DNA of 46,425 bases. Origin: Pelagibacterales bacterium SAG-MED29 (GTDB taxonomy: Bacteria; Pseudomonadota; Alphaproteobacteria; Pelagibacterales; Pelagibacteraceae). The notes under the pieces were generated by a model. That model searched no databases. It had not been told where the DNA came from and worked only from the letters and a program-made list of their open reading frames with translations. The stretch spans positions 1-46,425 of the forward strand of contig JACWDZ010000007.1 of assembly GCA_014653815.1 (NCBI GenBank), written 5' to 3'. Shown in pieces: positions 2,203 to 24,929 of the stretch (position 1 is the stretch's first letter; each line of letters begins with the position of its first letter). Both the position numbers and the translations under genes were made by a program.

Positions 2203-2882
2203 TGAGTGAAAAACCGCACATTGTAAAATCTTACGAAGAGCAACTTCAGTTATTAAAAGATACAATAGTGAAAATGGGAACGGGTGTTGAGAAACAGCTA
2301 GAAAACGCCATTCAATCTTTAGTTAAAAAAGACATTAGCTTAGCAGAAAAATCTATCAAAGATGACGAATTAATCGATAAGTATGAATTAAATATAGAAG
2401 AGCAAGTTGTAAATTTGATTGCCCTAAGGCAACCTATGGCAATAGATTTAAGAGAAACAGTTGTTGCTTTAAAAATTTCTTCAGACTTAGAGAGAATTGG
2501 TGATTTAGCAAAAAACATCTCAAAACGATTAGCTAAAATTGGAACCGATTTACCTAATGAAATAACTAAAAATTTCGAAATAGCTGGTCTAAAAGCATCA
2601 AAACAAGTTAATGCAGTTTTAAATTCGTATTTACATAGAGCTAAAGATACAGCAGAAAATGTTTGGAATTCTGATGAAGAAATAGATCAAATGACTAATG
2701 CTAATATGGAAGCTGCAGTAAAGCATTTAGAAAAAAATAAAAACGATGTACAAAAAGTAACCCAACTACTGTTCATACTTAAAAATATAGAGAGGATTGG
2801 AGATCATGCAACTAATATTGCAGAGCAAGTTTATTTTCTGATTACAGGAGATTATTTAGAGGGAGACCGACCAAAGGGATAA
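2202..2882 (+). CDS. phoU: Phosphate transport regulator PhoU
   Basis: Cytoplasmic negative regulator linking Pst transport to the phosphate two-component system. The 226-aa protein is all-helical, with the two PhoU repeats each carrying an acidic metal-binding helix: DLERIGDLAKNI near residue 95 and NIERIGDHATNI near residue 195. Length and motif spacing match the family. Start and stop codons overlap both neighbours by one base. PhoU is known to act with PstB and the sensor PhoR; no PhoR gene is in this window, so the kinase must be upstream of the left edge or elsewhere. Confidence 0.96.
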   Translation: MSEKPHIVKSYEEQLQLLKDTIVKMGTGVEKQLENAIQSLVKKDISLAEKSIKDDELIDKYELNIEEQVVNLIALRQPMAIDLRETVVALKISSDLERIGDLAKNISKRLAKIGTDLPNEITKNFEIAGLKASKQVNAVLNSYLHRAKDTAENVWNSDEEIDQMTNANMEAAVKHLEKNKNDVQKVTQLLFILKNIERIGDHATNIAEQVYFLITGDYLEGDRPKG

Positions 2883-3565
2883 TGAGGGCAAATTTATTCA
2901 TAGTTGAAGATGAAATGCCCATCGTAACTTTGCTTAAATACAATTTAGAAAAAGAGGGTCACAAAGTTGATTATGCAGTCAATGGAGAAGAAGCTATTAG
3001 AAATATAAAGGAAAAAAATCCTGATTTAATTTTATTAGATTGGATGTTACCAGATATTTCAGGTGTTGAAGTCTGTAAAAATTTGAAAAGAAGCAATCTT
3101 CACAAAAATATCCCAATCATTATGTTAACAGCCAAAGGTGAAGAAGAAGACAAGCTGAAAGGATTTGAAACAGGAGCTGATGACTACGTAACTAAGCCAT
3201 TCAGCCAAAAAGAACTTATTGCAAGAGTTAACGCTTTACTAAAGAGATCTAAACCAAGTGTTGCCGCTGATGTTGTAGTATTTGAAGATCTAAAAGTAGA
3301 TAGAGTTCAACGAAGAGTTTATAGAGCAGATAAGCAAGTTATAGTTGGTCCTACAGAATTTAAACTAATTGATTTTTTAATAAAGAGTCCAAAAAGAGTA
3401 TATTCGCGTGAGCAACTTCTAAATTCTGTATGGGGAGATGATATTTATGTTGAGTCCAGAACTATAGATGTTCATATAAGAAGACTAAGAAAAGCAATAA
3501 ATATTGATGGCAAGAAAGATCTTATCAGAACAGTAAGATCTGCTGGCTATTCCTTAGATGCTTGA
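2882..3565 (+). CDS. phoB: Phosphate regulon response regulator PhoB
   Basis: OmpR/PhoB-class transcription factor of 227 aa. The receiver domain (about 1-120) has the acidic pocket at E9/D10, the phospho-acceptor D53 (LLLDWMLPD) and K105 (VTKPF). The winged-helix DNA-binding domain follows (about 130-227), with TEFKLIDFL and the recognition region VESRTIDVHIRRLRKA. When phosphorylated it should activate pst and other phosphate-starvation genes by binding direct repeats of about 11 bp. It is the last gene of the pst operon here, and its 3' end overlaps the convergent SixA-like gene by 19 nt. Confidence 0.95.
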   Translation: MRANLFIVEDEMPIVTLLKYNLEKEGHKVDYAVNGEEAIRNIKEKNPDLILLDWMLPDISGVEVCKNLKRSNLHKNIPIIMLTAKGEEEDKLKGFETGADDYVTKPFSQKELIARVNALLKRSKPSVAADVVVFEDLKVDRVQRRVYRADKQVIVGPTEFKLIDFLIKSPKRVYSREQLLNSVWGDDIYVESRTIDVHIRRLRKAINIDGKKDLIRTVRSAGYSLDA

Positions 3566-4093: not shown

Positions 4094-6220
4094 ATGTCGA
4101 AAGCATCATTTTCAGAAAACGCTAATATTAGCAATCAACTCATAAACAGAGAATTGTCTTGGCTTCAGTTTAATGATCGTGTTTTAGAAGAGTCAAAAGA
4201 TAAAACAAATCCTTTATTTGAAAGAGTAAAATTTTTATCAATCGCAGGTACAAATTTAGATGAATTTTTTATGGTAAGAGTCGCTGGACTTTTTAATCAA
4301 ATTAAAGATGGTTTTGACGAATTAAGCGCAGATGGATTAACTGCAGAGGATCAATTGAATAGGGTCGTATTAAAAACTAAAGATCTATTAAAGAAGCAAA
4401 ACGAAGCGTTTCTAGAGTTGAAAAAAGAGCTATCGAAAGAAAAAATTTTCATTCGGAAAATATCAGAACTAAATAAGAAGGATCTTATGTATCTAAGAGA
4501 ATATTTTCAGGAAACAATTTATCCTATAATAACGCCTACTGCCATTGACCCATCACATCCCTTTCCTTTTATACCAAATAAAGGCCAAGCAATTTTATTA
4601 AGAATGACAAGAATTAAAAAAAAAAGAGAACTAAACGCAATTATAGTTATACCAAGAGCACTTCCAAAATTTATATCTCTAAACAATTCTGAAACAATAA
4701 ATGAATTTGTCACAATTGATGACGTAATTTGTAAATTTGCAAATGAAATATTTCCAGACCATAATATCGAGGCAAGTTTGCAGTTTAAAATAATTAGAGA
4801 CAGCGAAATTGAAATAGATGATGAAGCTGCTGATCTTGTGAGATATTTTGAAAAAGCAATTAAGAAAAGAAGAAGGGGAAACGTAGTTAAACTTGAAGTA
4901 CTCACTAATTCAAATAAAAACCTTTTAAATTTTATTTCAAAAAAATTTAAAATGGATGAAGATCATATTTATGAGGTTGAAGGATTGGTTGGAATACAAG
5001 ATATAGATGAAATTTGTAAAAAGAAAGATCCAAAGCTGAGATTTAAAAAGTTTAATCCTAGAGAAGTTGAAAGATTGAAGGAATTTGATGATAAATTTTT
5101 TTCAGCTATAAGAAGTAAAGATTTTGTTGTACACCACCCTTTTGAAACTTTTGATGTAGTAATTCAATTTTTAGAAGTTGCAGCAAAAGATCCCAAAGTT
5201 ATCGGTATCAAACAAACTTTGTATCGAACCACACCTGACTCTCCTATCGTAAAAGCACTAAGTAGAGCAGCAGAAAACGGAAAAGTTGTTACAGCCGTAA
5301 TAGAAATAAAAGCTCGATTTGATGAGGAAGCTAATATTGAATTATCTAGGAAACTAGAGAAAGCTGGCGTTCAAATTGTTTACGGATTCGCAAAATACAA
5401 AACGCATGCAAAGGCAAGTTTAGTTTTAAGAAAAGAAGGAACAAAAACGCGAAGCTATGTTCACTTAGGTACAGGAAACTATCATCCAATTAACGCAAAA
5501 ATTTATACTGACTTATCACTGTTTAGCTCTAATCAAGACTTGGCCAAAGATGTTGAAAAATTTTTCAATTATGTAACTGGTTATGCAAAACCCAAAAAAT
5601 TGAATAAAATTTTTATGTCTCCATTAAATAGTAGGAATTTTTTTGAAGAAAAAATTGAAAATGAAATTGTAAATGCAAGTAAAGGAAAACCTGCAGAAAT
5701 ATGGGCAAAAATGAATTCTCTTGTAGACCCTGGAATTATTAAGAAATTTTATGAAGCTTCAAACGCAGGAGTAAAAATAAACTTATCAGTACGAGGCGTA
5801 TGCTGCTTAAGACCTGGAGTTAAAGGTCAATCTGAAAATATAAAAGTAAAAAGCCTTATTGGCAGATTTTTAGAACACTCAAGAATTTATTGTTTTGCAA
5901 ATGGTAGTTCTATGCCTTCTCGAGAGAATCAGGTATATATTTCATCTGCAGATTTAATGCCTAGAAATTTAGATAGAAGAATTGAAATTATAATTCCGAT
6001 AGAAAACAATACTGTGCATGAGCAAATTTTAGATCAAATTATGTTAGCCAACTTTAAAGATAAATCAGAAACATGGTATTTAGATAGCTTAGGAAACTAT
6101 AATAAAGAACAAGAAAAAGGCTTTTCCGCACATTCCTATTTCATGAAGAACCCAAGTTTATCAGGTCGTGGTAAGTCAATTTTAAGAGCTAAACCTCAAA
6201 ATTTAAGATTGGTAAAATGA
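4094..6220 (+). CDS. ppk1: Polyphosphate kinase
   Basis: PPK1 family, 708 aa, close to the usual 690-720. It reversibly transfers the terminal phosphate of ATP to polyphosphate. The N-terminal domain begins INRELSWLQFNDRVLEES; the two phospholipase-D-like C-terminal domains carry the catalytic histidines, H438 (YKTHAKASL), the autophosphorylation site by comparison with E. coli H435, and H457 (VHLGTGNYHP, compare H454). The ATG at 4094 gives a complete N-terminal domain. ppx follows with an ATGA overlap, the classical ppk-ppx pair. Placement after pst-phoU-phoB suggests storage of imported phosphate. I see no clear PhoB box in the 22-bp gap upstream. Confidence 0.97.
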   Translation: MSKASFSENANISNQLINRELSWLQFNDRVLEESKDKTNPLFERVKFLSIAGTNLDEFFMVRVAGLFNQIKDGFDELSADGLTAEDQLNRVVLKTKDLLKKQNEAFLELKKELSKEKIFIRKISELNKKDLMYLREYFQETIYPIITPTAIDPSHPFPFIPNKGQAILLRMTRIKKKRELNAIIVIPRALPKFISLNNSETINEFVTIDDVICKFANEIFPDHNIEASLQFKIIRDSEIEIDDEAADLVRYFEKAIKKRRRGNVVKLEVLTNSNKNLLNFISKKFKMDEDHIYEVEGLVGIQDIDEICKKKDPKLRFKKFNPREVERLKEFDDKFFSAIRSKDFVVHHPFETFDVVIQFLEVAAKDPKVIGIKQTLYRTTPDSPIVKALSRAAENGKVVTAVIEIKARFDEEANIELSRKLEKAGVQIVYGFAKYKTHAKASLVLRKEGTKTRSYVHLGTGNYHPINAKIYTDLSLFSSNQDLAKDVEKFFNYVTGYAKPKKLNKIFMSPLNSRNFFEEKIENEIVNASKGKPAEIWAKMNSLVDPGIIKKFYEASNAGVKINLSVRGVCCLRPGVKGQSENIKVKSLIGRFLEHSRIYCFANGSSMPSRENQVYISSADLMPRNLDRRIEIIIPIENNTVHEQILDQIMLANFKDKSETWYLDSLGNYNKEQEKGFSAHSYFMKNPSLSGRGKSILRAKPQNLRLVK

Positions 6221-7722
6221 AACCAGAATTAAAAAATCTTTTTAAATTTCAGTCTAATAAAAAGTTTAAGCAAGCCATAATAGATCTTGGATCAAATTCA
6301 ATAAGAATGCTCATATACGATAATTTTAAAATTTCTCCAATTCCAGTTTTTAATGAAAAAGCAGTTTGCAAACTTGGAAAAAATCTAGATAAATCTAAAA
6401 AACTAAATCCTGATGGAATTAAAAGTTCTTTAAAAGTTCTAAATAGATTTAAAGAAATTTTAGATATTTCAGACGTTCAAGATTTAGAAATTATTGCTAC
6501 AGCAGCTTTTAGAGAGGCCACTGATGCAAGTGAATTTTTAAAAGAAATTGAAAAAATATTTAATAAAAAACCACTAGTATTATCTGGCGAGGAAGAAGCA
6601 AGAACATCAGCAAACGGTGTAATGGTAGGATTTGATGAAGTAGATGGACTAGTTGCAGATTTAGGAGGTGGAAGTTTAGAACTTGCCAGAGTTTCTAAAA
6701 ATCAAATTTTTGAAACAACCTCTTTGCCTCTTGGAGTATTAAGACTTGAAAATAATCCTATTTTAAAAAAAAGAAATTTGGGAAAATATGTTAGAAAACT
6801 TTTAAGAGATGAAAAATGGCTTTTTAAAAAGAAATTTAAAAATATTTATTTGGTAGGAGGGACTTGGAGATCATTATTTAAATATCATCTCTTTAAAGAA
6901 AAACACCCATTACATATTTTGCATCAATATAAGCTCTCAAAAGATGTAGCAGTTAAATACTTAAACAGAATTTCAAAATTTAATAAATCATCTTTGAAAT
7001 CAATGGAATATATTACTAAATCTAGAACTCCCTATTTACCTTTTAGTTCTATAATACTTAACGAAATAATTGAAGCAGCAAGCCCCTCAAAAGTTATTTG
7101 CTCAATCAGTGGACTGAGAGAGGGGCATATGAATACAATTATAAACCAAGGAATGAGCGAGGATGAAATTTTCAAATTAAAAACTGATGGCATATCCTTT
7201 AAAAAAGGAGACTATGGAAAGAGTTTTGAAAAATATTTTAATTTTATTTCACCATTATTTGAAGACAACGAATATTTTAATCGAAGATTACTAACCTTGG
7301 CTTGTATCTTAAGCAAAATGGATTGGGGCCTAGGAGCTTTTCAAAAAGCAGAGCTAGTTTTTATGGAAGTGTTAAATACTCCATTACTAAAACTAGAACA
7401 TAGAGATAGAGTAAAAGTTGCAACAGCAAGTTTCTGGAGACATTGTGGCTTAAAATATAATCCGAATTATCAGTTTTTATCCTTATTAAATAACAACGAA
7501 ATTTTATCCTCAAAGCAAGTGGGATCTGCTTTAAGATTAGCAGAGTCACTTACTAGCATGTCTTCGTTGTTGTTAGATGAATTTAAAATTTATAAAAGAA
7601 ATAAGACTATTTTTTTGAAAATACCGAACAATCATAGTGATATAGTCTCAAAACAAGTAACTAAAAGACTTAAAAATCTGGCAAGAGAGATGAATGTCGA
7701 CTCTAATATCATTTATTCTTGA
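6217..7722 (+). CDS. ppx: Exopolyphosphatase / pppGpp phosphohydrolase family protein
   Basis: Ppx/GppA-family member of 501 aa, matching the long E. coli-type enzymes. Actin-like ATPase fold motifs are present: IDLGSNSIRMLI near residue 22, GEEEARTSANG near 126, and DLGGGSLELAR near 148. The C-terminal part (about 310-500) corresponds to the HD-like accessory domain, with a weakly conserved sequence. The expected reaction is release of phosphate from polyphosphate ends; pppGpp hydrolysis cannot be excluded. The start overlaps the ppk stop by 4 nt, so the opposing synthesis and breakdown enzymes are translated from one message. Confidence 0.93.
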   Translation: MKPELKNLFKFQSNKKFKQAIIDLGSNSIRMLIYDNFKISPIPVFNEKAVCKLGKNLDKSKKLNPDGIKSSLKVLNRFKEILDISDVQDLEIIATAAFREATDASEFLKEIEKIFNKKPLVLSGEEEARTSANGVMVGFDEVDGLVADLGGGSLELARVSKNQIFETTSLPLGVLRLENNPILKKRNLGKYVRKLLRDEKWLFKKKFKNIYLVGGTWRSLFKYHLFKEKHPLHILHQYKLSKDVAVKYLNRISKFNKSSLKSMEYITKSRTPYLPFSSIILNEIIEAASPSKVICSISGLREGHMNTIINQGMSEDEIFKLKTDGISFKKGDYGKSFEKYFNFISPLFEDNEYFNRRLLTLACILSKMDWGLGAFQKAELVFMEVLNTPLLKLEHRDRVKVATASFWRHCGLKYNPNYQFLSLLNNNEILSSKQVGSALRLAESLTSMSSLLLDEFKIYKRNKTIFLKIPNNHSDIVSKQVTKRLKNLAREMNVDSNIIYS

Positions 7723-7853: not shown

Positions 7854-8501
7854 CTACAAAATAATTTTTCTAATTAAATAGACAGCCAACATTCCACCAA
7901 TCATTTCAGCAATGATATAGCTGGGGGTATTTAAGTAATTAATTCCAGTAAATGTGTCTGTAAAAGTTCTTGCAATTGCTACCGCTGGATTTGCAAATGA
8001 AGTTGAAGAGGTAAACCAATAACCTGCTGTAATAAAAGTAGCAACTGATGAGGCGACTGCAAGTTTACCACTTTTTAAAGATCCGAATATCACAAAAATT
8101 AATCCAAAAGTTGCAATGATCTCAGCTGTAAAAATATTTATTCCAGGTCTAATCTTCTCTGATAGCTGTAACAAAGGAAGATCAAACATAAAATTAGCCA
8201 ACATTACTCCTAACATGCAACCTAAGATTTGAGCTGAGATATAAATGATAATTAAATTTTTTTTAATCTTATTGGTAAAATACATTGCTAAAGTAACGAC
8301 AGGATTGAAATGTGCTCCAGAGATATCACCGATTGAAGTAATCAGAACAAATAATCCTGCACCTGTAGCTAAAGTATTCGCTATTAACATTACAGCGACG
8401 TCATCAGTTAGATTTTGAGCCATAATACCTGAACCAACAATTATCATGACTAAAAAACAACTTCCTATAAATTCACCAATAAATATTTTTTTACTTTTCA
8501 T
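7854..8501 (-). CDS. MIP-family channel (AqpS-like, probable arsenite efflux)
   Basis: Major intrinsic protein of 215 aa with six hydrophobic helices. Both pore motifs are present: N66-P67-V68 (GAHFNPVVTLA) and N171-P172-A173 (SFANPAVAIARTFTDTF). The usual selectivity-filter arginine directly after the second NPA is replaced by Val; the nearest Arg is R178. This second motif resembles aquaglyceroporin-like channels found in ars operons. The gene overlaps the ArsC gene by 11 nt. In Sinorhizobium meliloti AqpS is known to replace the ArsB pump and let arsenite leave the cell. I infer the same here from the operon; water or other small-solute transport remains possible. Confidence 0.82.
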   Translation of the reverse strand: MKSKKIFIGEFIGSCFLVMIIVGSGIMAQNLTDDVAVMLIANTLATGAGLFVLITSIGDISGAHFNPVVTLAMYFTNKIKKNLIIIYISAQILGCMLGVMLANFMFDLPLLQLSEKIRPGINIFTAEIIATFGLIFVIFGSLKSGKLAVASSVATFITAGYWFTSSTSFANPAVAIARTFTDTFTGINYLNTPSYIIAEMIGGMLAVYLIRKIIL

Positions 8502-8934
8502 TTTTTATCCAATTTTTAATTTTTTCATTAATTATATTATAAGTTTCTTCAGCTATTAAATTTATTTTATCTTTATTTTTAGTTTTTTTAAATTTTTCAA
8601 CAGGGTCCTCAATATCCCAGTGTGTAATGGTCTTTTTTTTGGGCCATACAGGACAAACTTCTTTATTAGCGTTATTACAAACTGTAATCACGTAATCAAT
8701 ATCAATATCATTTTTTAAAAATTCATCAAAATTTTTTGAATAATAAGTGTCTAAATTAAATTTTTTTCCTTCAAGATACTCTTTAATATAAGGATTGATT
8801 TTTCCTGAAGGATTACTTCCGGCACTAAATGCGATGAATTGATTTCGGTAATTTTTATTTACAATACTTTCTGCTATTATGCTTCTCGCAGAGTTTCCAG
8901 TACAAACAAACAATATTGTTTTTGTTTTCCTCAT
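8491..8934 (-). CDS. arsC: Arsenate reductase, thioredoxin-coupled LMW-phosphatase type
   Basis: The 147-aa protein begins with the phosphate-binding loop CTGNSAR (C11-R17) of low-molecular-weight tyrosine phosphatases. Downstream are the two further redox cysteines of the thioredoxin-dependent arsenate reductases, C86 and C94 (VCNNANKEVCPVWP), and the acidic HWDIEDP segment (about 105-111). The three cysteines point to arsenate reduction to arsenite through a Cys disulfide cascade, not to a plain phosphatase. It is followed by the overlapping MIP channel that could release arsenite. Arsenate enters through phosphate transporters, so proximity to pst-pho fits, although the gene runs the other way. 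Confidence 0.88.
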   Translation of the reverse strand: MRKTKTILFVCTGNSARSIIAESIVNKNYRNQFIAFSAGSNPSGKINPYIKEYLEGKKFNLDTYYSKNFDEFLKNDIDIDYVITVCNNANKEVCPVWPKKKTITHWDIEDPVEKFKKTKNKDKINLIAEETYNIINEKIKNWIKNEK

Positions 8935-8960: not shown

Positions 8961-9188
8961 TTACGGAACCAAAATTTGATAAAAACCAATAATAAATAAT
9001 GGTATCTGTAACCCAAAATTAGTTAATATTGCTTTATCCTTAGAAATAAAACCTGCAATAGTCCAACCAACAACTCCAGCTCCATGAAACATTATATTTA
9101 CTGGATACATATTCAAATTTGTTAATAAAATACCTGTAAGAACTAAAAAAGTACTTAACCATTTAAGGTATTTTTTAATAAACTTCAT
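8961..9188 (-). CDS. Small two-helix membrane protein of unknown function
   Basis: Uncharacterised 75-aa protein. A basic N-terminus (MKFIKKYLKW) precedes two or three hydrophobic segments, about residues 11-27, 31-49 and 55-73, separated by a short KDKA loop. I do not recognise it securely; similar small proteins occur in marine bacteria. It is first in the minus-strand order before arsC (26 nt gap) and the MIP channel, so it may be co-expressed with arsenate detoxification. A TATAAT box lies only 5 nt before its ATG, suggesting a leaderless message. Confidence 0.7.
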   Translation of the reverse strand: MKFIKKYLKWLSTFLVLTGILLTNLNMYPVNIMFHGAGVVGWTIAGFISKDKAILTNFGLQIPLFIIGFYQILVP

Positions 9189-9193
9189 AGTTA

Positions 9194-9225
9194 ATTATAT
9201 GATTGTAATGTTAAAGTTTTGTTAA
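9194..9225 (-). promoter_or_regulatory. Candidate promoter with 11-bp direct repeat for the arsenate module
   Basis: Reading on the minus strand, TATAAT (9199 to 9194) lies 5 nt before the ATG of the small membrane protein. In place of a good -35 box there are two copies of TTAACA with an exact 11-bp period (plus-strand TGTTAA at 9209-9214 and 9220-9225), 9 bp upstream of the -10. Response regulators of the PhoB/OmpR class bind 11-bp direct repeats in this position. The repeat is only a partial match to the E. coli Pho box, so the regulator is a guess. Confidence 0.35.
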
Positions 9226-9293
9226 CCAGACGAGGCTTTAACTTTTTTCTCGATAAACTCTGGAATCTCATCACCAAGATCATCGTCTCTCTC
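9222..9293 (-). pseudogene. Fragment of the gcrA 3' end
   Basis: This minus-strand piece encodes 23 residues in frame between a TAG at 9294-9296 and a TAA at 9222-9224, with no start codon. Its peptide contains DDDLGDEIPEFIEKKVK, nearly the same as the C-terminus of the intact GcrA encoded at 12379-12873 (EDDLGEEIPEFIEKKVK). DNA identity is also high, including a perfect 17-nt run (ATAAACTCTGGAATCTC). It is a remnant or duplication of the gcrA tail, not a gene. With the intact gcrA it brackets the znu-zur block in direct orientation. Confidence 0.85.
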
Positions 9294-9359
9294 CTATAAT
9301 TATTGTTTACTAAGAATTTATTACAATTTAGAAGAGAAAGATACTTTGGTTAGAAATAG

Positions 9360-10337
9360 TTAACAGCTTTTAAAGGACTTAGACATATTGCTAATTAGAT
9401 CAAAATATAAAGTTTTTCCTGGGGTTAAAGTGGCTCCTAATGGATCTAAAACACCAGTTTTAATATTCATATCTTTCGCTACTGCATTGATTATGTCAGG
9501 ATTAAATTGAGGTTCAGAAAACACACAACTTACTTTGTCATGTTCAATTATTTCTCTGATTTCAGATAATTGTTCAGCTCCAGGCAATACATCTGTATTT
9601 ACAGTAAAAGCTCCTAGAACATTTATATCAAATCTTTTTTCAAAATATTGATAGGCGTCATGGAAAACAATCGATTTAAAATCTTTATTTAAATCAGATT
9701 TTACTTTTTTTGTAAGTTTATCTAAATCTTTGAGTGCTTTTTTTAAATTAGCTTTATACGTAGATGCATTTTTTTGATCATTTTCTATTAAATGTTCTGC
9801 CATTTCTTTTAAAATCACTTTTGCGTTCATCGGATCTAGCCAAATGTGCGGATCATGTTCACCGTGAGCATGCTCATGGTGATCATCGTGTTTATCTTCT
9901 TTATGACCATGTTCTTTATGTTCATCTTCTTTTTTATGCTCGTCATGTCCATGATCATCATGTCCTTCAAATATGTTTCTTTCTCTAAATTCTAATTTAT
10001 TTAAACCTTTAATTTCCATTAATTCTATTTTTTCAGCTTTTTTTGCTATTGAATTTAATGGTTTTTCTAAAAAACTTTCTAAGTCTTCGCCAATCCAAAA
10101 GATTAAATCAGCATTTTGTAACATTTTAGCGTGAGATGGTTTCATTGCAAATCCGTGTGGTGAAGCATATCCATCTACTATTAAATCTGGTTTACCTACC
10201 CCATCCATCAAATAACTTGCTAATGAGTGTATAGGTTTTATTGATGCAACTACTTTGATATCAGCTTTTGCTGGTGAGAAAATAATAAATAGAGATAATA
10301 TTGATAATATAAATGGTAATTTTTTAATGTTTTTCAT
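9360..10337 (-). CDS. znuA: Zinc ABC transporter substrate-binding protein ZnuA
   Basis: Periplasmic zinc-binding protein of 325 aa. The signal peptide covers about residues 1-25, with cleavage expected after SPAKA. Candidate zinc ligands are H37 (KPIHSLA), H61 (SPHGFAMKPSHA), H164 (DPHIWLDP) and H226 (FHDAYQYF). A charged His-rich loop at about 126-164 (repeats of HDEH, HKEH, HDDHHEHAHGEH) is the hallmark of ZnuA and separates it from manganese-binding relatives. The gene diverges from znuC across 72 bp containing two Zur-box-like palindromes, so it should be induced by zinc shortage. Confidence 0.95.
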   Translation of the reverse strand: MKNIKKLPFILSILSLFIIFSPAKADIKVVASIKPIHSLASYLMDGVGKPDLIVDGYASPHGFAMKPSHAKMLQNADLIFWIGEDLESFLEKPLNSIAKKAEKIELMEIKGLNKLEFRERNIFEGHDDHGHDEHKKEDEHKEHGHKEDKHDDHHEHAHGEHDPHIWLDPMNAKVILKEMAEHLIENDQKNASTYKANLKKALKDLDKLTKKVKSDLNKDFKSIVFHDAYQYFEKRFDINVLGAFTVNTDVLPGAEQLSEIREIIEHDKVSCVFSEPQFNPDIINAVAKDMNIKTGVLDPLGATLTPGKTLYFDLISNMSKSFKSC

Positions 10338-10356
10338 AATAATAGTATGTTAGAAT

Positions 10357-10371
10357 TGTTATAATATAACA
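10357..10371. promoter_or_regulatory. Zur box 1 (znuA/znuC divergent operator)
   Basis: TGTTATAATATAACA is a perfect 7-1-7 palindrome and matches the core of the proteobacterial Zur operator (TGTTATANTATAACA). It lies 20 bp upstream of znuA and 38 bp upstream of znuC, where one bound dimer could repress both. A Zur-like gene is third in the znuCB operon, consistent with autoregulation. Confidence 0.85.
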
Positions 10372-10374
10372 GCA

Positions 10375-10389
10375 TGTAATAATATAACG
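10375..10389. promoter_or_regulatory. Zur box 2, weaker copy
   Basis: TGTAATAATATAACG matches the same operator core at 12 of 14 fixed positions. It begins 18 bp after the start of box 1, on the znuC side, so two Zur dimers could bind almost side by side along the helix. It ends 20 bp before the znuC start codon. Confidence 0.6.
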
Positions 10390-10409
10390 TTTTAGAGTCA
10401 AGAGATAAA

Positions 10410-11156
10410 ATGAGCTTAAATCAAAATATTTTAGTAAAATTAAAACAAGCTGGTTTTCGTATAAACGGCAAATGGCTTGTTAAAGGAGTGTCATTACAAA
10501 TTGAAAAGGGTAAAATAGTTACTCTTATTGGCCCTAATGGTTCTGGAAAAAGCACAACAGCTAAAATTGCTTTAGGAATTTATAAAAAAATCGATGGAGA
10601 AGTTGAGAAATATACGAATAAAGTTGGATATGTTCCTCAAAAAATTTCAATTGATTGGACATTGCCACTTAGAGTGAATGATTTCATGGTACTAACTGAA
10701 AATCTCAAAGATGAAGCTATTAACGAAGCTTTATCTTTAACAGGCGTTATACATCTCAAAGACAAAAATCTGGGAGACTTATCAGGCGGGGAATTCCAAA
10801 GAGTATTGCTTGCAAGAGCCATCTCAAAAAAACCAGATCTTTTAGTGCTTGATGAACCAGTACAAGGAGTGGATTTTACTGGCGAAATTGCTCTATACGA
10901 ACTTATAAAGAAAATTTCAGATGAATTGAATTGTGGAATTCTATTGATTTCTCATGACTTACATACTGTAATGAGTGCTACTGACCATGTTGTTTGTCTA
11001 AACGGTCACGTTTGTTGTTCAGGCTCTCCATTAGATGTTGCAAAAAATAATGAATATAAAGCTTTATTTGGAGAACAAGCCTCTCAAATATTAACAAGAT
11101 ACAAACATAGTCATGATCATATTCATACAAGTGAAGGTGAAATAAAAAAAAATTAA
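10410..11156 (+). CDS. znuC: Zinc ABC transporter ATP-binding protein ZnuC
   Basis: ATPase of 248 aa driving zinc import. Walker A GPNGSGKST is at residues 41-49, the signature LSGGE at 124-128, Walker B LLVLDEP at 144-150, and the H-loop lies in ISHDLHTV near 180. The C-terminus is rich in histidine (YKHSHDHIHTSEGE), a feature of ZnuC proteins that may help sense or hold zinc. znuB starts on the base after its stop codon. Expression should be repressed by Zur through the palindromes immediately upstream. Confidence 0.94.
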   Translation: MSLNQNILVKLKQAGFRINGKWLVKGVSLQIEKGKIVTLIGPNGSGKSTTAKIALGIYKKIDGEVEKYTNKVGYVPQKISIDWTLPLRVNDFMVLTENLKDEAINEALSLTGVIHLKDKNLGDLSGGEFQRVLLARAISKKPDLLVLDEPVQGVDFTGEIALYELIKKISDELNCGILLISHDLHTVMSATDHVVCLNGHVCCSGSPLDVAKNNEYKALFGEQASQILTRYKHSHDHIHTSEGEIKKN

Positions 11157-11960
11157 ATGTTAGATGATTTTTTTATAAGAGCTTTATTAGCTGGACTTGG
11201 TATTGCATTTGTAACTGGCCCTCTTGGATGTTTTGTTATATGGAGACGACTATCATATTTTGGTGATACTCTTGCCCACTCTGCTTTACTTGGAGTTACA
11301 CTAGCTTATACTTTGGAATTTAACATTGCTCTTTCAGTATTTATAATTTCATCTTTAATTGCATTAATTTTGATACAACTTCAAAAAAGAACTAATCTAC
11401 CAGGTGACGCTTTATTAGGTCTCTTAGCTCATTCATCTTTAGCAGTTGGACTGGTTGTAATTGGTTTTTTAACATTCATAAGGTTCGATATCATGGGATT
11501 ATTATTTGGGGATATATTAGCAGTTACAACTGAAGATTTATTAATTATATGGATAGGGGGGCCATTAATACTTTTAATTCTTAAATTGATTTGGAAACCT
11601 TTATTTGCATCAACAGTAAATTACGAATTAGCAGAAGCCGAAGGTTTAAATCCTGATAGAGCTAAAGCTATATTTACTATTTTAATGGCTGGGATAATTG
11701 CTATTTCAATTAAAATGGTTGGACTATTATTAATTACAGGAATGTTAATCATACCAGCTGCAATGGCACGAAATATTTCTTCAAGCCCTCAGAGTATGGT
11801 AATTTATTCAGTGCTTGGAGGTTTGTTGTCTGTAATTTTGGGTTTGTTTACTTCCTTACAGTTTAATACATCTTCAGGGCCATCGATCATTGCGGCTTCC
11901 TTGTTTTTATTCATACTTTCATTAGTAAAAATTAAACAATCGATTAAATTGAAAAATTAA
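11157..11960 (+). CDS. znuB: Zinc ABC transporter permease ZnuB
   Basis: Inner-membrane permease of the ABC-3 family, 267 aa, with about eight hydrophobic segments. Typical features are FVTGPLGCFVIWRRLSYFGDTLAHSALLG near the N-terminus, the loop ELAEAEGLNPDRAKAIF near residue 160, which contacts ZnuC, and LLITGMLIIPAAMARN near residue 190. The gene has zero spacing from znuC and 15 nt before zur, giving a znuC-znuB-zur transcription unit. Confidence 0.94.
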   Translation: MLDDFFIRALLAGLGIAFVTGPLGCFVIWRRLSYFGDTLAHSALLGVTLAYTLEFNIALSVFIISSLIALILIQLQKRTNLPGDALLGLLAHSSLAVGLVVIGFLTFIRFDIMGLLFGDILAVTTEDLLIIWIGGPLILLILKLIWKPLFASTVNYELAEAEGLNPDRAKAIFTILMAGIIAISIKMVGLLLITGMLIIPAAMARNISSSPQSMVIYSVLGGLLSVILGLFTSLQFNTSSGPSIIAASLFLFILSLVKIKQSIKLKN

Positions 11961-11975
11961 TGAAGAATCAGTACA

Positions 11976-12377
11976 ATGACTAGAATGCATAAAGAAAACA
12001 ATCTTTCCAAAAATCAACAAATAATTTTTGATTTAATTGATAGATCTTCAGAGCCCTTAAAAGCATATACGATACTTTATAATGTTCAAAAGAAAGGTAT
12101 CAATGCTCCACCGCAAGTTTATCGAGCATTAGATAAATTAGTTGAGATAGGAAAAATTCATAAAATTGAAAGTAAAAATGCTTTTGTTGCATGTAAAAAT
12201 TCTGATTGTGAAATTTCAAAAGCTACAGCGTTTTCAATTTGTGAAAGTTGTGAAGTGGTTGATGAAATTAGTGATGTTAAACTCTCAAAATATTTATCAA
12301 GTTTTAATCATAAAAAAGGAATGAAGTTCAAAAGATTTAATTTAGAATTTTTTGGTCTTTGCAAAAAGTGCAAATAA
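11976..12377 (+). CDS. zur: Fur-family zinc uptake regulator Zur
   Basis: Fur superfamily repressor of 133 aa. The N-terminal winged helix (about 10-70) contains the recognition segment PPQVYRALDKLVEIG. The dimer domain carries the structural zinc pairs C89-x2-C92 (CESC) and C129-x2-C132 (CKKC); C73 and C78 may contribute to the regulatory site. Assignment to Zur, not Fur, rests on the operon with znuCB and on the operators matching the Zur consensus. An in-frame ATG at 11985 is an alternative start. The stop is one base from the stop of the convergent gcrA. Confidence 0.9.
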   Translation: MTRMHKENNLSKNQQIIFDLIDRSSEPLKAYTILYNVQKKGINAPPQVYRALDKLVEIGKIHKIESKNAFVACKNSDCEISKATAFSICESCEVVDEISDVKLSKYLSSFNHKKGMKFKRFNLEFFGLCKKCK

Positions 12378-12378
12378 T

Positions 12379-12873
12379 TTAGCTTGCTGATTTTACTTTC
12401 TTTTCTATAAACTCTGGAATCTCTTCACCTAGATCATCTTCTTTTTGGTTTTTAGGCTGGAAGGCATATAAAACGTGCAGCTTGCAATATGGAAATTCAC
12501 CTTCTGGTTTTCTACCACAAAAGTAAAACTTTTCTTCATTAGGGTGACCTATTGGCCATTTGCACGTCTCTTCAGTTAATTCCTCTAAAGATTTAGGATT
12601 TTCAGCTTCGAAATTTTTATCAAGTAAAATTGACTGAAATTTAGCCTTTCTAGACATAGGAGCCGGTGAACGCCTCATGACTTGTCTATTTTCTCTTGAT
12701 TTAAGAGAATTTGATTGTTTCGATGGAGCTCTAGCTTCTAGGTTTAATCTATGAGCTTTACCTATAACTGCATTACGCGTGGTATCACCTAGTGCTTCCG
12801 CTATTTGACTAGCCGTATGCCCTTTCGACCAAAGTTCTTTTAATTTTTCAACTTTCTCGCTAGTCCAACTCAT
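12379..12873 (-). CDS. gcrA: Cell-cycle regulator GcrA
   Basis: GcrA family, 164 aa, an alphaproteobacterial sigma70-binding transcription factor that in Caulobacter activates promoters carrying CcrM-methylated GANTC sites. The helix-turn-helix at the N-terminus is clear (MSWTSEKVEKLKELWSKGHT, then TRNAVIGKAHRLNL near 32-45). A linker rich in Arg, Ser and Pro follows, then the C-terminal RNA polymerase-binding domain with CKWPIGHP near 107, FCGRK and YCKLH. The acidic tail EIPEFIEKKVK is the part duplicated near 9222-9293. The zur stop lies only one base away, so the znu-zur block abuts the very end of gcrA. Confidence 0.93.
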   Translation of the reverse strand: MSWTSEKVEKLKELWSKGHTASQIAEALGDTTRNAVIGKAHRLNLEARAPSKQSNSLKSRENRQVMRRSPAPMSRKAKFQSILLDKNFEAENPKSLEELTEETCKWPIGHPNEEKFYFCGRKPEGEFPYCKLHVLYAFQPKNQKEDDLGEEIPEFIEKKVKSAS

Positions 12874-13010: not shown

Positions 13011-13823
13011 ATGGTTGAAATGACAAAAAAATATAAAATTGGAAAAAGAAGATTTGGTTATATTAACTGGGTCGGAGCTTGGACTTTATATAAAAAAGAG
13101 GTTTTAAGATTTTTAATCGTTTGGGTTCAAACAATTTTTTCCCCATTAATTTCATCGCTTTTGTTTTTATTAGTTTTGTCATTAGCTATTGGCACTGAAA
13201 GAGGTGAAGTACTAGGGGTTTCATTTATCATTTTTCTGGCTCCAGGCTTAATTGCAATGCAGGTTATACAACAGTCTTTTTCCCATTCATCTTCATCCTT
13301 TATGATCGGTAAAATACAAGGAAATATTGTTGATCTCCTTTATGCGCCTTTATCAGCTGCAGAAGTTACAATTTCTGTTTGTTTAGCTGCTGTCACTAGA
13401 AGTTTTATTATTGCTTTTGTTTCAATTTTAGTTTTTTATTTAATTATTGATATTCAAATAAAGCATTTTTTTACCTTAATTTTATTTACTTTTTTGTCTT
13501 CTTTTATATTAGGAAACATAGGCACTATTGCAGGTTTGTGGGCTGAAAAATTTGATCATATGGCATCTGTTACAAACTTTGTCATAGTTCCATTATCTTT
13601 TTTATCCGGCACATTTTATACGATAGATAGATTGCCTGGTTTTTTAAAAACTGTCAGTGAAGCAAATCCTTTTTTCTATATGATTGATGGATTTAGATAT
13701 AGTTTTATTGGCGTTGCAGATGGCTCAATTAAGATAGGAATAATTTATTTAACAATTTTGAGTTTTTTGAGCTGGTTAGTCGCTTATATTTTATTTAAAA
13801 GAGGCTATAAGATAAAATCATAA
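13011..13823 (+). CDS. ABC-2 type transporter permease
   Basis: Permease of 270 aa with about six hydrophobic helices, of the ABC-2 family (YadH/NodJ-like). The conserved segment LSGTFYTIDRLP with PFFYMIDGFRYSFIG near residues 197-230 is typical of this group. No ATP-binding partner is encoded next to it, although such permeases need one; the partner must be elsewhere. An AAGGAG motif lies about 14 nt before the ATG, rather far, but no closer start preserves the first helix. argD begins 3 nt after its stop, so it may be the promoter-proximal gene of an argDF transcript. The substrate is unknown. Confidence 0.85.
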   Translation: MVEMTKKYKIGKRRFGYINWVGAWTLYKKEVLRFLIVWVQTIFSPLISSLLFLLVLSLAIGTERGEVLGVSFIIFLAPGLIAMQVIQQSFSHSSSSFMIGKIQGNIVDLLYAPLSAAEVTISVCLAAVTRSFIIAFVSILVFYLIIDIQIKHFFTLILFTFLSSFILGNIGTIAGLWAEKFDHMASVTNFVIVPLSFLSGTFYTIDRLPGFLKTVSEANPFFYMIDGFRYSFIGVADGSIKIGIIYLTILSFLSWLVAYILFKRGYKIKS

Positions 13824-13826
13824 AAT

Positions 13827-14993
13827 ATGAGTGCAATATTAAATACCTATAATAGAAAAAAAATTTCTTTTAAAAGAGGAAAGGGAAGCTTTCTGTATGC
13901 AACAAATGGAAAAAAATATTTAGATTTTGTTCAAGGTATAGCAGTAAATTGTCTAGGACATTCAAATGATTATTTAAATAAAGCTATACAAAAACAATCT
14001 AAAAAAGTTTGGCATGTTTCAAATGTATTTACAATTCCCGAACAAGAGAAGTTGGCAAAAAGACTTAAACAAAAAACTTTTGCAGATTATGTTGCTTTTC
14101 AAAATTCAGGAGCAGAAGCAACAGAAGCTGCAATAAAATTTGCTAGAAGATATTTTTATTCAAAGGGTAAACCAAAAAAAAATAGAATTATATGTATCAA
14201 CAATAGTTTTCATGGAAGAACTTTAGCAACCATATTTGCTAGCAATAGCAAGAAAGCTACTGAAGGATTTTATCCTAAAGTTGATGGATTTGATCATTTT
14301 AACTTCGGTGACCACAAAGGATTAGAAAGAGCTATAAATAGTAGAACGGCAGCTATTATGGTTGAGACTATAATGGGTGAAGGAGGGATAAAGGTAATTC
14401 CTGATTACTGTTTAAAAGGATTAAGAAAATTGTGTAATAAAAAAAAGATACTATTAATACTAGATGAAGTTCAATGCGGAATAGGGAGAACCGGAAAATT
14501 TCTAGCTTTTGAGCATGCTAAAATAAAACCTGATATTGTTCCTATAGCTAAAGGAATTGGTGGAGGTTTTCCAGTAGGAGCAGTATTAGTAAATAAAAAA
14601 GTTGCCTCTGGAATGAAACCTGGAACACACGGATCAACTTTTGGAGGAAATCCCTTAGCAATGAGCGTAGGTAATGCAGTTATTGATGTTTTATTTAGAA
14701 AAGGATTTTTAAATAATGTTAAAAAAAATGGGAAATATTTTCATAAAGAATTGAATAAAATCAAAAATAAATATCCCAAAGTTATTAAAGAGGTTAGAGG
14801 TCAAGGATTATTACTTGGACTTGCATTACAAAAAGATCAAACAGACTTTATAAAGAAATTATTACAAAAAAGATTGCTTACTGTCAAAGCATCTGAAAAT
14901 GTTGTCAGACTTTTGCCTCCTTTAAACGTTACAAAAAAGGAAATTAATTTAGCATTAAAAATTCTGAATAATGTAAGTGAGAACTACAAATGA
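13827..14993 (+). CDS. argD: Acetylornithine aminotransferase
   Basis: Class III PLP-dependent aminotransferase of 388 aa. It transfers an amino group from glutamate to N-acetylglutamate semialdehyde in arginine synthesis. The Schiff-base lysine is K242 (PIAKGIGGGFPVGAV). Other landmarks are QNSGAEATEAAIKFAR near 95, SFHGRT near 130, LILDEVQCGIGRTG near 212, and THGSTFGGNPLA near 270. The assignment to ArgD, as against other ornithine-type aminotransferases, is backed by the ATGA overlap with argF. A second role in lysine synthesis (succinyl-diaminopimelate) is common for this family and possible here. Confidence 0.93.
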   Translation: MSAILNTYNRKKISFKRGKGSFLYATNGKKYLDFVQGIAVNCLGHSNDYLNKAIQKQSKKVWHVSNVFTIPEQEKLAKRLKQKTFADYVAFQNSGAEATEAAIKFARRYFYSKGKPKKNRIICINNSFHGRTLATIFASNSKKATEGFYPKVDGFDHFNFGDHKGLERAINSRTAAIMVETIMGEGGIKVIPDYCLKGLRKLCNKKKILLILDEVQCGIGRTGKFLAFEHAKIKPDIVPIAKGIGGGFPVGAVLVNKKVASGMKPGTHGSTFGGNPLAMSVGNAVIDVLFRKGFLNNVKKNGKYFHKELNKIKNKYPKVIKEVRGQGLLLGLALQKDQTDFIKKLLQKRLLTVKASENVVRLLPPLNVTKKEINLALKILNNVSENYK

Positions 14994-24852: not shown

Positions 24853-24929
24853 GCAGCAGTAGCTCAGTTGGTTAGAGCACTAGTTTGTGGAACTAGGGGT
24901 CGGTGGTTCGAATCCACCCTGCTGTACCA
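24853..24929 (+). tRNA. tRNA-His (GTG), G1:U72, A73 type
   Basis: A 77-nt tRNA with encoded CCA. Acceptor GCAGCAG pairs with CTGCTGT (one G-U pair at 1:72); the D arm is AGCTCAGTTGGTTAGAGCA, the anticodon stem CTAGT/ACTAG encloses TTGTGGA with anticodon GTG, and the T arm is GGTGG-TTCGAAT-CCACC. The base before position 1 is T and the discriminator is A73, so the universal G-1:C73 pair of tRNA-His is missing, as known for a clade of alphaproteobacteria. The hisS start codon is 4 nt after CCA. Confidence 0.97.

Follow-up and report, generated by a model that had tools for sequence, protein, structure and literature searches.

SAR11 bacteria dominate the ocean surface with small genomes, yet they differ among themselves in their genes for phosphate, arsenate and zinc, and it is an open question how whole nutrient islands are swapped between lineages without mobile-element machinery. 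As far as the consulted portions of the papers cited here go, the closest described counterparts are replacement flexible genomic islands, which are exchanged by homologous recombination (Lopez-Perez 2014, PMC4033161); raised numbers of synonymous substitutions are reported there for their border genes, and no clear hallmarks of illegitimate recombination for their boundaries. SAR11 itself harbors a phosphate island with alternative pst-pho versions of under 60% amino-acid identity (Haro-Moreno 2020, PMC7318151), and for its counterpart in HIMB59 homologous recombination has been suggested (PMC10734472); pst occurs in 55% of offshore Pelagibacteraceae genomes (PMC12636525). The znuABC genes of SAR11, accompanied by a Fur-family gene in conserved local order, are patchily distributed, with znuA in 50% of SAR11 genomes (Hogle 2016, PMC4771312), and in Prochlorococcus arsenite efflux goes together with phosphorus genes (PMC3686209). 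Homology-facilitated illegitimate recombination, finally, is described with junction overlaps of mostly 3-10 bp (PMC3240628). Here, we describe a locus in Pelagibacterales bacterium SAG-MED29 at which a leftover piece of the cell-cycle gene gcrA marks the apparent intake of a phosphate-and-arsenic island from another lineage beside the zinc-uptake block znu-zur. The stretch analyzed, hereafter the window, is one contig of 46,425 b (JACWDZ010000007.1) of a draft genome of 0.95 Mb that is 80% complete and has Pelagibacteraceae (SAR11) records as its nearest named relatives; it is G000 in our numbering of genomes (G) and loci (L).

Beyond znu-zur as seen from the intact core gene gcrA (12379-12873, reverse strand; Pfam GcrA, E 2.8e-40), the window contains a second gcrA 3' end of 67 nt (9222-9288, reverse strand), which, judging from the comparisons below, is probably the left edge of an imported phosphate/arsenate island joined beside a resident znu-zur. 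This island would be of the kind we call type B, in which a DUF6552 gene stands 33 nt behind gcrA, with arsC, aquaporin, ppx, ppk, phoB, phoU and pst after it (L040 and its kin). The fragment agrees with the intact gcrA tail of other SAR11 genomes, such as that of L040, at 66 of 67 positions, as against 45 of 52 for the tail of its own genome. The original prediction, made from the letters of this DNA alone, had noticed a piece of the GcrA C-terminus on the far side of znu-zur in the orientation of gcrA, and this is borne out by a direct repeat of 52 nt and 87% identity (9237-9288 versus 12391-12442, same orientation, spacing 3154 nt); its 45 matches are the best value in an ungapped scan of every window position, the runner-up on either strand reaching 32/52. 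When the whole draft genome was searched with the GcrA protein at E values up to 10, the intact gene and the fragment were returned and nothing else. The fragment proper ends at 9288, and 9289-9293 are part of a leader on the znuA side. For comparison, 108 gcrA loci were oriented, 100 of them distinct. Those 54 of the 100 whose gcrA identity reaches 62% or more, some of them with short downstream sequences, were searched for gcrA tails downstream of gcrA. Such tails were found in the window, G014 and G015 only, with 97-99% identity to the L040 tail over 67 nt and 81-87% to the respective own tail over 51-52 nt; L113 and L117 gave one weak match each (E 4e-3).

Sequence of another type lies on the other side of the breakpoint at 9288 (reverse strand). 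There, between znuA and the fragment, persists a 71-nt leader (9289-9359, reverse strand) that includes the ribosome site AGGAGAGA and is homologous to the znuA-DUF6552 spacer of G033, G097, G158, G083, G112 and G156; it is the leader of a lost DUF6552 gene of the znu type. The znu-bearing relatives G033, G097 and G158 are without the fragment and show the plain order znuA, leader, DUF6552. We ran a 177-nt junction query, whose base 78 corresponds to window position 9288, against 169 same-genus drafts, many of them incomplete, so that absence from the others is no proof. The whole junction was present in four of them (G000, G014, G015 and G067), and its recurrence in three drafts besides the window's own means that it is not an assembly accident. 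Matches on the tail side begin at base 78 and extend to at least base 171 in 37 genomes, while those on the leader side end at bases 76-78 in nine (G083, G112, G156, G097, G033, G158, G077, G021 and G167); the remaining results are shorter or otherwise placed pieces, and 42 drafts gave no match. We saw no conserved small gene at the fragment, in an inspection that stopped short of all 127 genomes with a match to the query. With a foreign-type gcrA tail on one side and a znu-type DUF6552 leader on the other, position 9288 is a chimeric junction, a fusion of two island types, as expected if a phosphate/arsenate island entered beside znu-zur with its donor's gcrA tail as left edge. The exact overlap at the breakpoint amounts to 1 nt, within a short imperfect likeness seen by eye. 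Both the donor's gcrA tail and the recipient's leader were kept, which makes the event legible at the level of single bases.

The origin of the two sides can be followed further in plain nucleotide identities. In 500-nt bins left of gcrA, the window shares 84-97% identity with G014, 67-96% with G005, G009 and G015, and 65-90% with the type-B genomes G006, G030, G036, G034 and G020. In 42 of 44 bins it is closer to the best of the znu-bearing genomes G014, G015, G009 and G033 than to the best type-B genome of the five; with G014, which carries the junction too, left out, the count is 38. Within the znu block, identity is 93-99% to the same four znu-bearing genomes and 84-89% to G021. From the fragment rightwards, the window is 94-99% identical to eight type-B genomes, among them G020, which has the most distant left flank. 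With G014 as reference, type-B identity stops near +16 kb from gcrA, within a phoR-like gene; beyond +20 kb, G014 shares 65-86% with G006 and G036, 74-96% with G015 and 70-90% with G033. The type-B tract is thus flanked to the left and to the right by DNA of other character, which we read as import of a type-B island. The right end of the tract in G014 (L112/L140) is patchy: a gap of 65-76%, spanning the 5' portion of the phoR-like gene as well as the next gene, is followed by a second type-B-like patch of 87-94% from +18 to +20 kb, which suggests a second exchange.

That the type-B island is the incoming part, that its right end is homologous and its left end was joined almost without homology, and that selection played a part, are inferences. 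In the ancestor, znu-zur would already have been docked at gcrA with a DUF6552-led island next to it, and a donor lineage of type B (with the order gcrA, DUF6552, arsC, aquaporin, ppx, ppk, phoBU, pst) would have supplied the DNA that replaced the right part of that island. Its right end may lie about 16 kb from gcrA, taking G014 and G015 as stand-ins, and was presumably set by a homologous crossover; at the left end, the incoming gcrA tail would have been fused with almost no homology to the old DUF6552 leader just past its ribosome site, for which homology-facilitated illegitimate recombination offers a model. A crossover inside the shared DUF6552 gene would have deleted the tail, which here would have stayed as a scar. 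Sequences that fit such a crossover exist: in G009, the same island is found next to a left part with znu, and its DUF6552 gene by eye carries znu-type differences over the first ~110 nt, the rest being as in the window; also by eye, the change point lies near the DUF6552 start codon in G167, and spacer and start are of the znu type in G021. The type-B entries beside znu in these three genomes look like homologous crossovers in or at the start of DUF6552, making the join in the window the odd one.

Several observations weigh against this history. The window contig stops at +12.4 kb, and on the right flank G014 is clearly closest to G015, which carries the junction too, while the non-junction znu-bearing G033 is barely closer there than type B (70-90% versus 65-86%). 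G005, which in many left-flank bins is as near as G014, has neither znu at gcrA nor a znuB match (74% complete), and in the znuCB tree the four junction genomes form only a weakly supported clade (84/40). The direction of transfer is read from identity and not from a dated event, and the single nucleotide of exact overlap at the breakpoint is a weak point.

The position at which the island would have entered is an exchange slot. Our survey of 108 loci (the 100 distinct ones and eight more, partly overlapping as genomes of one species) was anchored on gcrA by locus selection, and the right border was recognized by SMR or NDUFA9. No island is present in 47 loci, in which NDUFA9-Rnd-KpsF follow 16-462 bp from gcrA; these are more distant, with gcrA identities of 57-66%. 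Of the other 61, 40 have DUF6552 as the first among the genes looked for, 17 have zur, two have znuA and one (G005) has another FUR gene; one locus was too short. The right border was reached in 25 of the 61, at 2.1 to 21.9 kb, and Rnd and KpsF follow it in 18 of these, the remaining seven stretches ending earlier; in 36, the stretch reached no border. Contents alternate between two pst-pho versions (61-78% identity, phoU 44-50%), a glycerophosphodiesterase with an ABC set (ugp-like), and islands with or without znu. G006 and G029, for instance, are 90-97% identical over the 3 kb left of gcrA and yet carry different islands. The converse is seen within type B, of which 13 of 16 loci were compared pairwise (78 pairs): in 55 pairs the gcrA bodies are only 69-87% identical, yet the last 33 nt agree at 85-100% (94-100% without the L137 pairs) and the 663 nt from +37 at 96-100%. 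Exchangeable nutrient modules thus occupy the slot that is enclosed by gcrA and the core block SMR/NDUFA9-Rnd-KpsF; in its equivalent position between shared core neighbors, its alternative gene clusters of similar function and a near-identical island in a divergent core, it agrees with replacement islands.

The end of gcrA takes part in these exchanges. Its last 33 nt are on average 97% identical within type B, 95% within type C (11 loci with DUF6552 12 nt after gcrA) and 84% among znu loci; between types, the mean is 75% for B versus C and 62% for B versus the 17 znu loci. The gcrA tails thus travel with the DUF6552-led islands. In znu loci, by comparison, the identity jump begins at the gcrA stop: G122 and the pair G000 and G067 share 82% of the gcrA body, 67-68% of the tail and 93% of the first 100 nt of zur. 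Of 136 pairs of znu loci, 79 are more alike in znu than in gcrA by over 5 points and 26 are less alike by over 5, so the two are neighbors with separate histories. A fixed crossover point in gcrA is not supported for the type-B islands, as the stretch of full identity that ends at the stop measures anything between 9 and 210 nt in the 78 pairs. Some further slot contents deserve mention. In the distant SAR11 loci L060 and L064, znu-zur sits inverted at the gcrA slot, with znuA facing gcrA (at 40 bp in L064, after ~1 kb in L060). In G005 (L115, 15719-16506), the FUR gene is of a different kind and is paired with a 135-aa protein weakly resembling Mntp/ZIP metal transporters, below Pfam cut-offs; the pair is perhaps an alternative metal module. 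A 322-aa protein (L123, 14881-15849, reverse strand) recurs in islands without the type-B pst set; it has no Pfam match and is PiT-like by eye only.

The original prediction had seen the course of events differently: znu-zur would have entered a resident gcrA-DUF6552-arsC genome at the gcrA 3' end, carrying a replacement tail and leaving the old tail behind. The strains by which it proposed to check this do exist, as a gene like the DUF6552 gene at 8961-9188 stands within 72 nt of gcrA, with no znu-zur in that place, in the 40 DUF6552-first loci, 16 of them with the arsC type of the window; the fragment matches the tail of such loci, and a transfer of gcrA, znu and leader into a type-B genome would yield an identical junction. 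The lack of znu in G005, a near relative by its left flank, also speaks for it. We nevertheless consider it unlikely that the fragment is an old tail left by znu-zur, since the znu-type DUF6552 leader intervenes between znuA and the fragment, znu-bearing relatives are without the fragment, and the fragment belongs with its right side to the type-B island; the left flank, moreover, is nearer to znu-bearing relatives than to type B. Nor is it supported that znu brought a replacement tail, as it is with DUF6552-led islands that gcrA tails move, and in the G122 comparison the tail does not accompany znu. The prediction stands in so far as the 3' end of gcrA receives znu-zur as variable cargo, which is found at other addresses too and has a history apart from gcrA. 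That the fragment arose by local duplication of the genome's own gcrA tail, as its orientation and similarity alone might suggest, has a negligible chance and is ruled out by its far better match to the foreign tail; the spacer that follows it likewise matches foreign genomes.

Direct copies on both sides of a block, and gcrA tails that group by island type even where type-B bodies differ, would also be expected of a site-specific element with the conserved 3' end of gcrA as its integration site and a replacement tail of its own. We regard such an element as highly improbable. No recombinase was found among the island proteins scanned, which did not comprise every island ORF, and a search limited to phage-type integrases, to the exclusion of serine recombinases and transposases, yielded a single match in each of 12 drafts out of 14 and none in the other two, never on the gcrA contig, in line with the original prediction, which had seen no integrase. 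No tRNA was found at the island border, the sole tRNA found in the window being tRNA-His at 24853. A flanking copy occurs in only four of the 17 zur-first loci, where it is a foreign gcrA tail, and the direct repeats contain no fixed attachment core; the variable length of the identical run is as expected with scattered crossovers, and the islands measure between 2.1 and 21.9 kb. An integrase-based element is therefore not supported, with one recombinase family searched genome-wide. The fragment might also be more than a scar, which would be compatible with an imported type-B island: a putative 30-codon ORF (9191-9283, reverse strand) runs over it out of frame. The recycled ribosome site precedes the ATG of this ORF by 7 nt, its stop precedes the DUF6552 start by 2 nt, and the reading frame is intact in all four junction genomes. 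We see a slim chance that it encodes a functional leader peptide kept by selection; the four close copies, with one amino-acid difference, are too few to test selection.

The znu-zur module itself comprises a predicted ZnuABC-Zur set. It consists of znuA (9360-10337, reverse strand; Pfam ZnuA, E 1.6e-64), whose stop codon forms its right edge, as seen by eye at several addresses, and the divergent genes znuC for the ATPase (10410-11156, forward; ABC_tran, E 1.1e-26), znuB for the ABC-3 permease (11157-11960, forward; E 1.3e-66) and zur (11976-12377, forward), the latter assigned by context and a weak FUR match (E 4.6e-6). As the original prediction stated, the stops of zur and gcrA are one base apart (12377/12379). 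Between znuA and znuCB-zur lies the palindrome TGTTATAATATAACA (10357-10371), which we take to be a Zur site and hence a probable operator. Its central GTTATAnTATAAC is exact in 45 of 46 loci and has at most one mismatch in all 46; as 15 of 100 shuffles reach two matches at up to two mismatches, its weight lies in this conservation and not in rarity by chance. With its own regulator, a probable operator and outer genes pointing outward, the module should work at any address.

A single znuB match is found in each of 118 of the 169 drafts, except for two partial ones in G178. In 38 loci, znu-zur stands at gcrA, between a glycine-betaine-type transporter and nrdBA, beside one of these only, or rarely elsewhere (neighbors named by Pfam on one copy each). 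By eye, it is mostly delimited by the stop codons of zur and znuA, the last zur codons being variable, and the znuA stop abuts the nrdB stop directly in G076, G069, G068, G139, G141, G166 and G175. On a znuCB tree of 46 hand-chosen rows (44 of the 118 znuB-bearing same-genus genomes and two distant loci), the gcrA address requires six changes, all six forced by starred branches, against a shuffled mean of 14.8; such counts do not distinguish gains of the address from losses. The label 'other' was given to four loci that have nrdB on the right and lack proXW on the left, and the gcrA count is independent of it. Passenger pairs (an unknown protein with a HAD phosphatase; an ATP-grasp with a proteasome-like protease) stand beside znuA at both gcrA and proX/nrdB addresses (L215, L202, L205, L201 and L209), as if co-travelling. 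It is conceivable, and we propose it tentatively, that SAR11 znu-zur is an integrase-free portable module, with a central operator and stop codons at both ends, that docks tail-to-tail at the 3' ends of core genes (gcrA; nrdB) and moves repeatedly between addresses and lineages. If so, gene 3' ends would be safe landing places for gene exchange in streamlined genomes.

To the right of the junction, the window continues with the DUF6552 gene for a small membrane-type protein (8961-9188, reverse strand; E 2.7e-9; 99-100% protein identity in type-B islands), an arsC-like reductase of the low-molecular-weight phosphatase fold (8491-8934, reverse strand; Pfam LMWPc) and an aquaglyceroporin-type channel (7854-8501, reverse strand; Pfam MIP). 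The presumed arsenate role of the reductase follows from its aquaporin neighbor and from described AqpS-ArsC pairs; like the zinc role of the module, it is predicted from sequence. Then follow, on the forward strand, ppx for an exopolyphosphatase (6217-7722; Pfam Ppx-GppA), ppk for a polyphosphate kinase (4094-6220; Pfam on the 99% identical L112 copy), a phoB-like regulator (2882-3565) and phoU (2202-2882; both by Pfam on the L112 copies), and pstB (1447-2202) and a pst permease (151-1446), the last two named by position, sequence start and synteny with G014, without Pfam. On the pst side, the island runs past the contig end. On the other side of gcrA, whose identity to relatives shifts sharply at its stop codon, the core flank holds an ABC-2 permease (13011-13823, forward; Pfam ABC2_membrane) and a gene that we presume to be argD-like (13827-14993, forward), in the same order as left of gcrA in close loci.

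Taken together, the locus is a new, unusually legible case of a known kind, a replacement genomic island, and the slot beside gcrA offers a defined place for measuring swaps in metagenomes along zinc and phosphate gradients. We did not find gcrA named as an island border in SAR11 in the literature searched, which omits most subscription papers and is no proof of novelty. As far as the consulted portions allow the comparison, the locus resembles the replacement islands of PMC4033161 in its constant position and core neighbors, its alternative sets of similar purpose, its near-identical islands in divergent flanks and the absence of a visible integrase; it differs in carrying nutrient and metal genes instead of surface glycans, and in that one nearly homology-free join has been caught, with the tail of a donor core gene as scar. 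With the SAR11 phosphate island (PMC7318151) it shares pstSCAB-phoU and PhoB-PhoR at one position in different versions, here of the identities given above, whereas the consulted portions do not contain the gcrA border, znu-zur or the DUF6552-arsC-aquaporin head; the two are presumably the same island. As in homology-facilitated illegitimate recombination (PMC3240628), one end would be homologous and the other was joined without long homology, but the overlap is shorter than the 3-10 bp mostly described, which counts against our account, and the consulted portions do not show the process for SAR11. Finally, gene set, order and patchiness of znuABC agree with the earlier description (PMC4771312), whose consulted portions are silent on the chromosomal address and on changes of that address.

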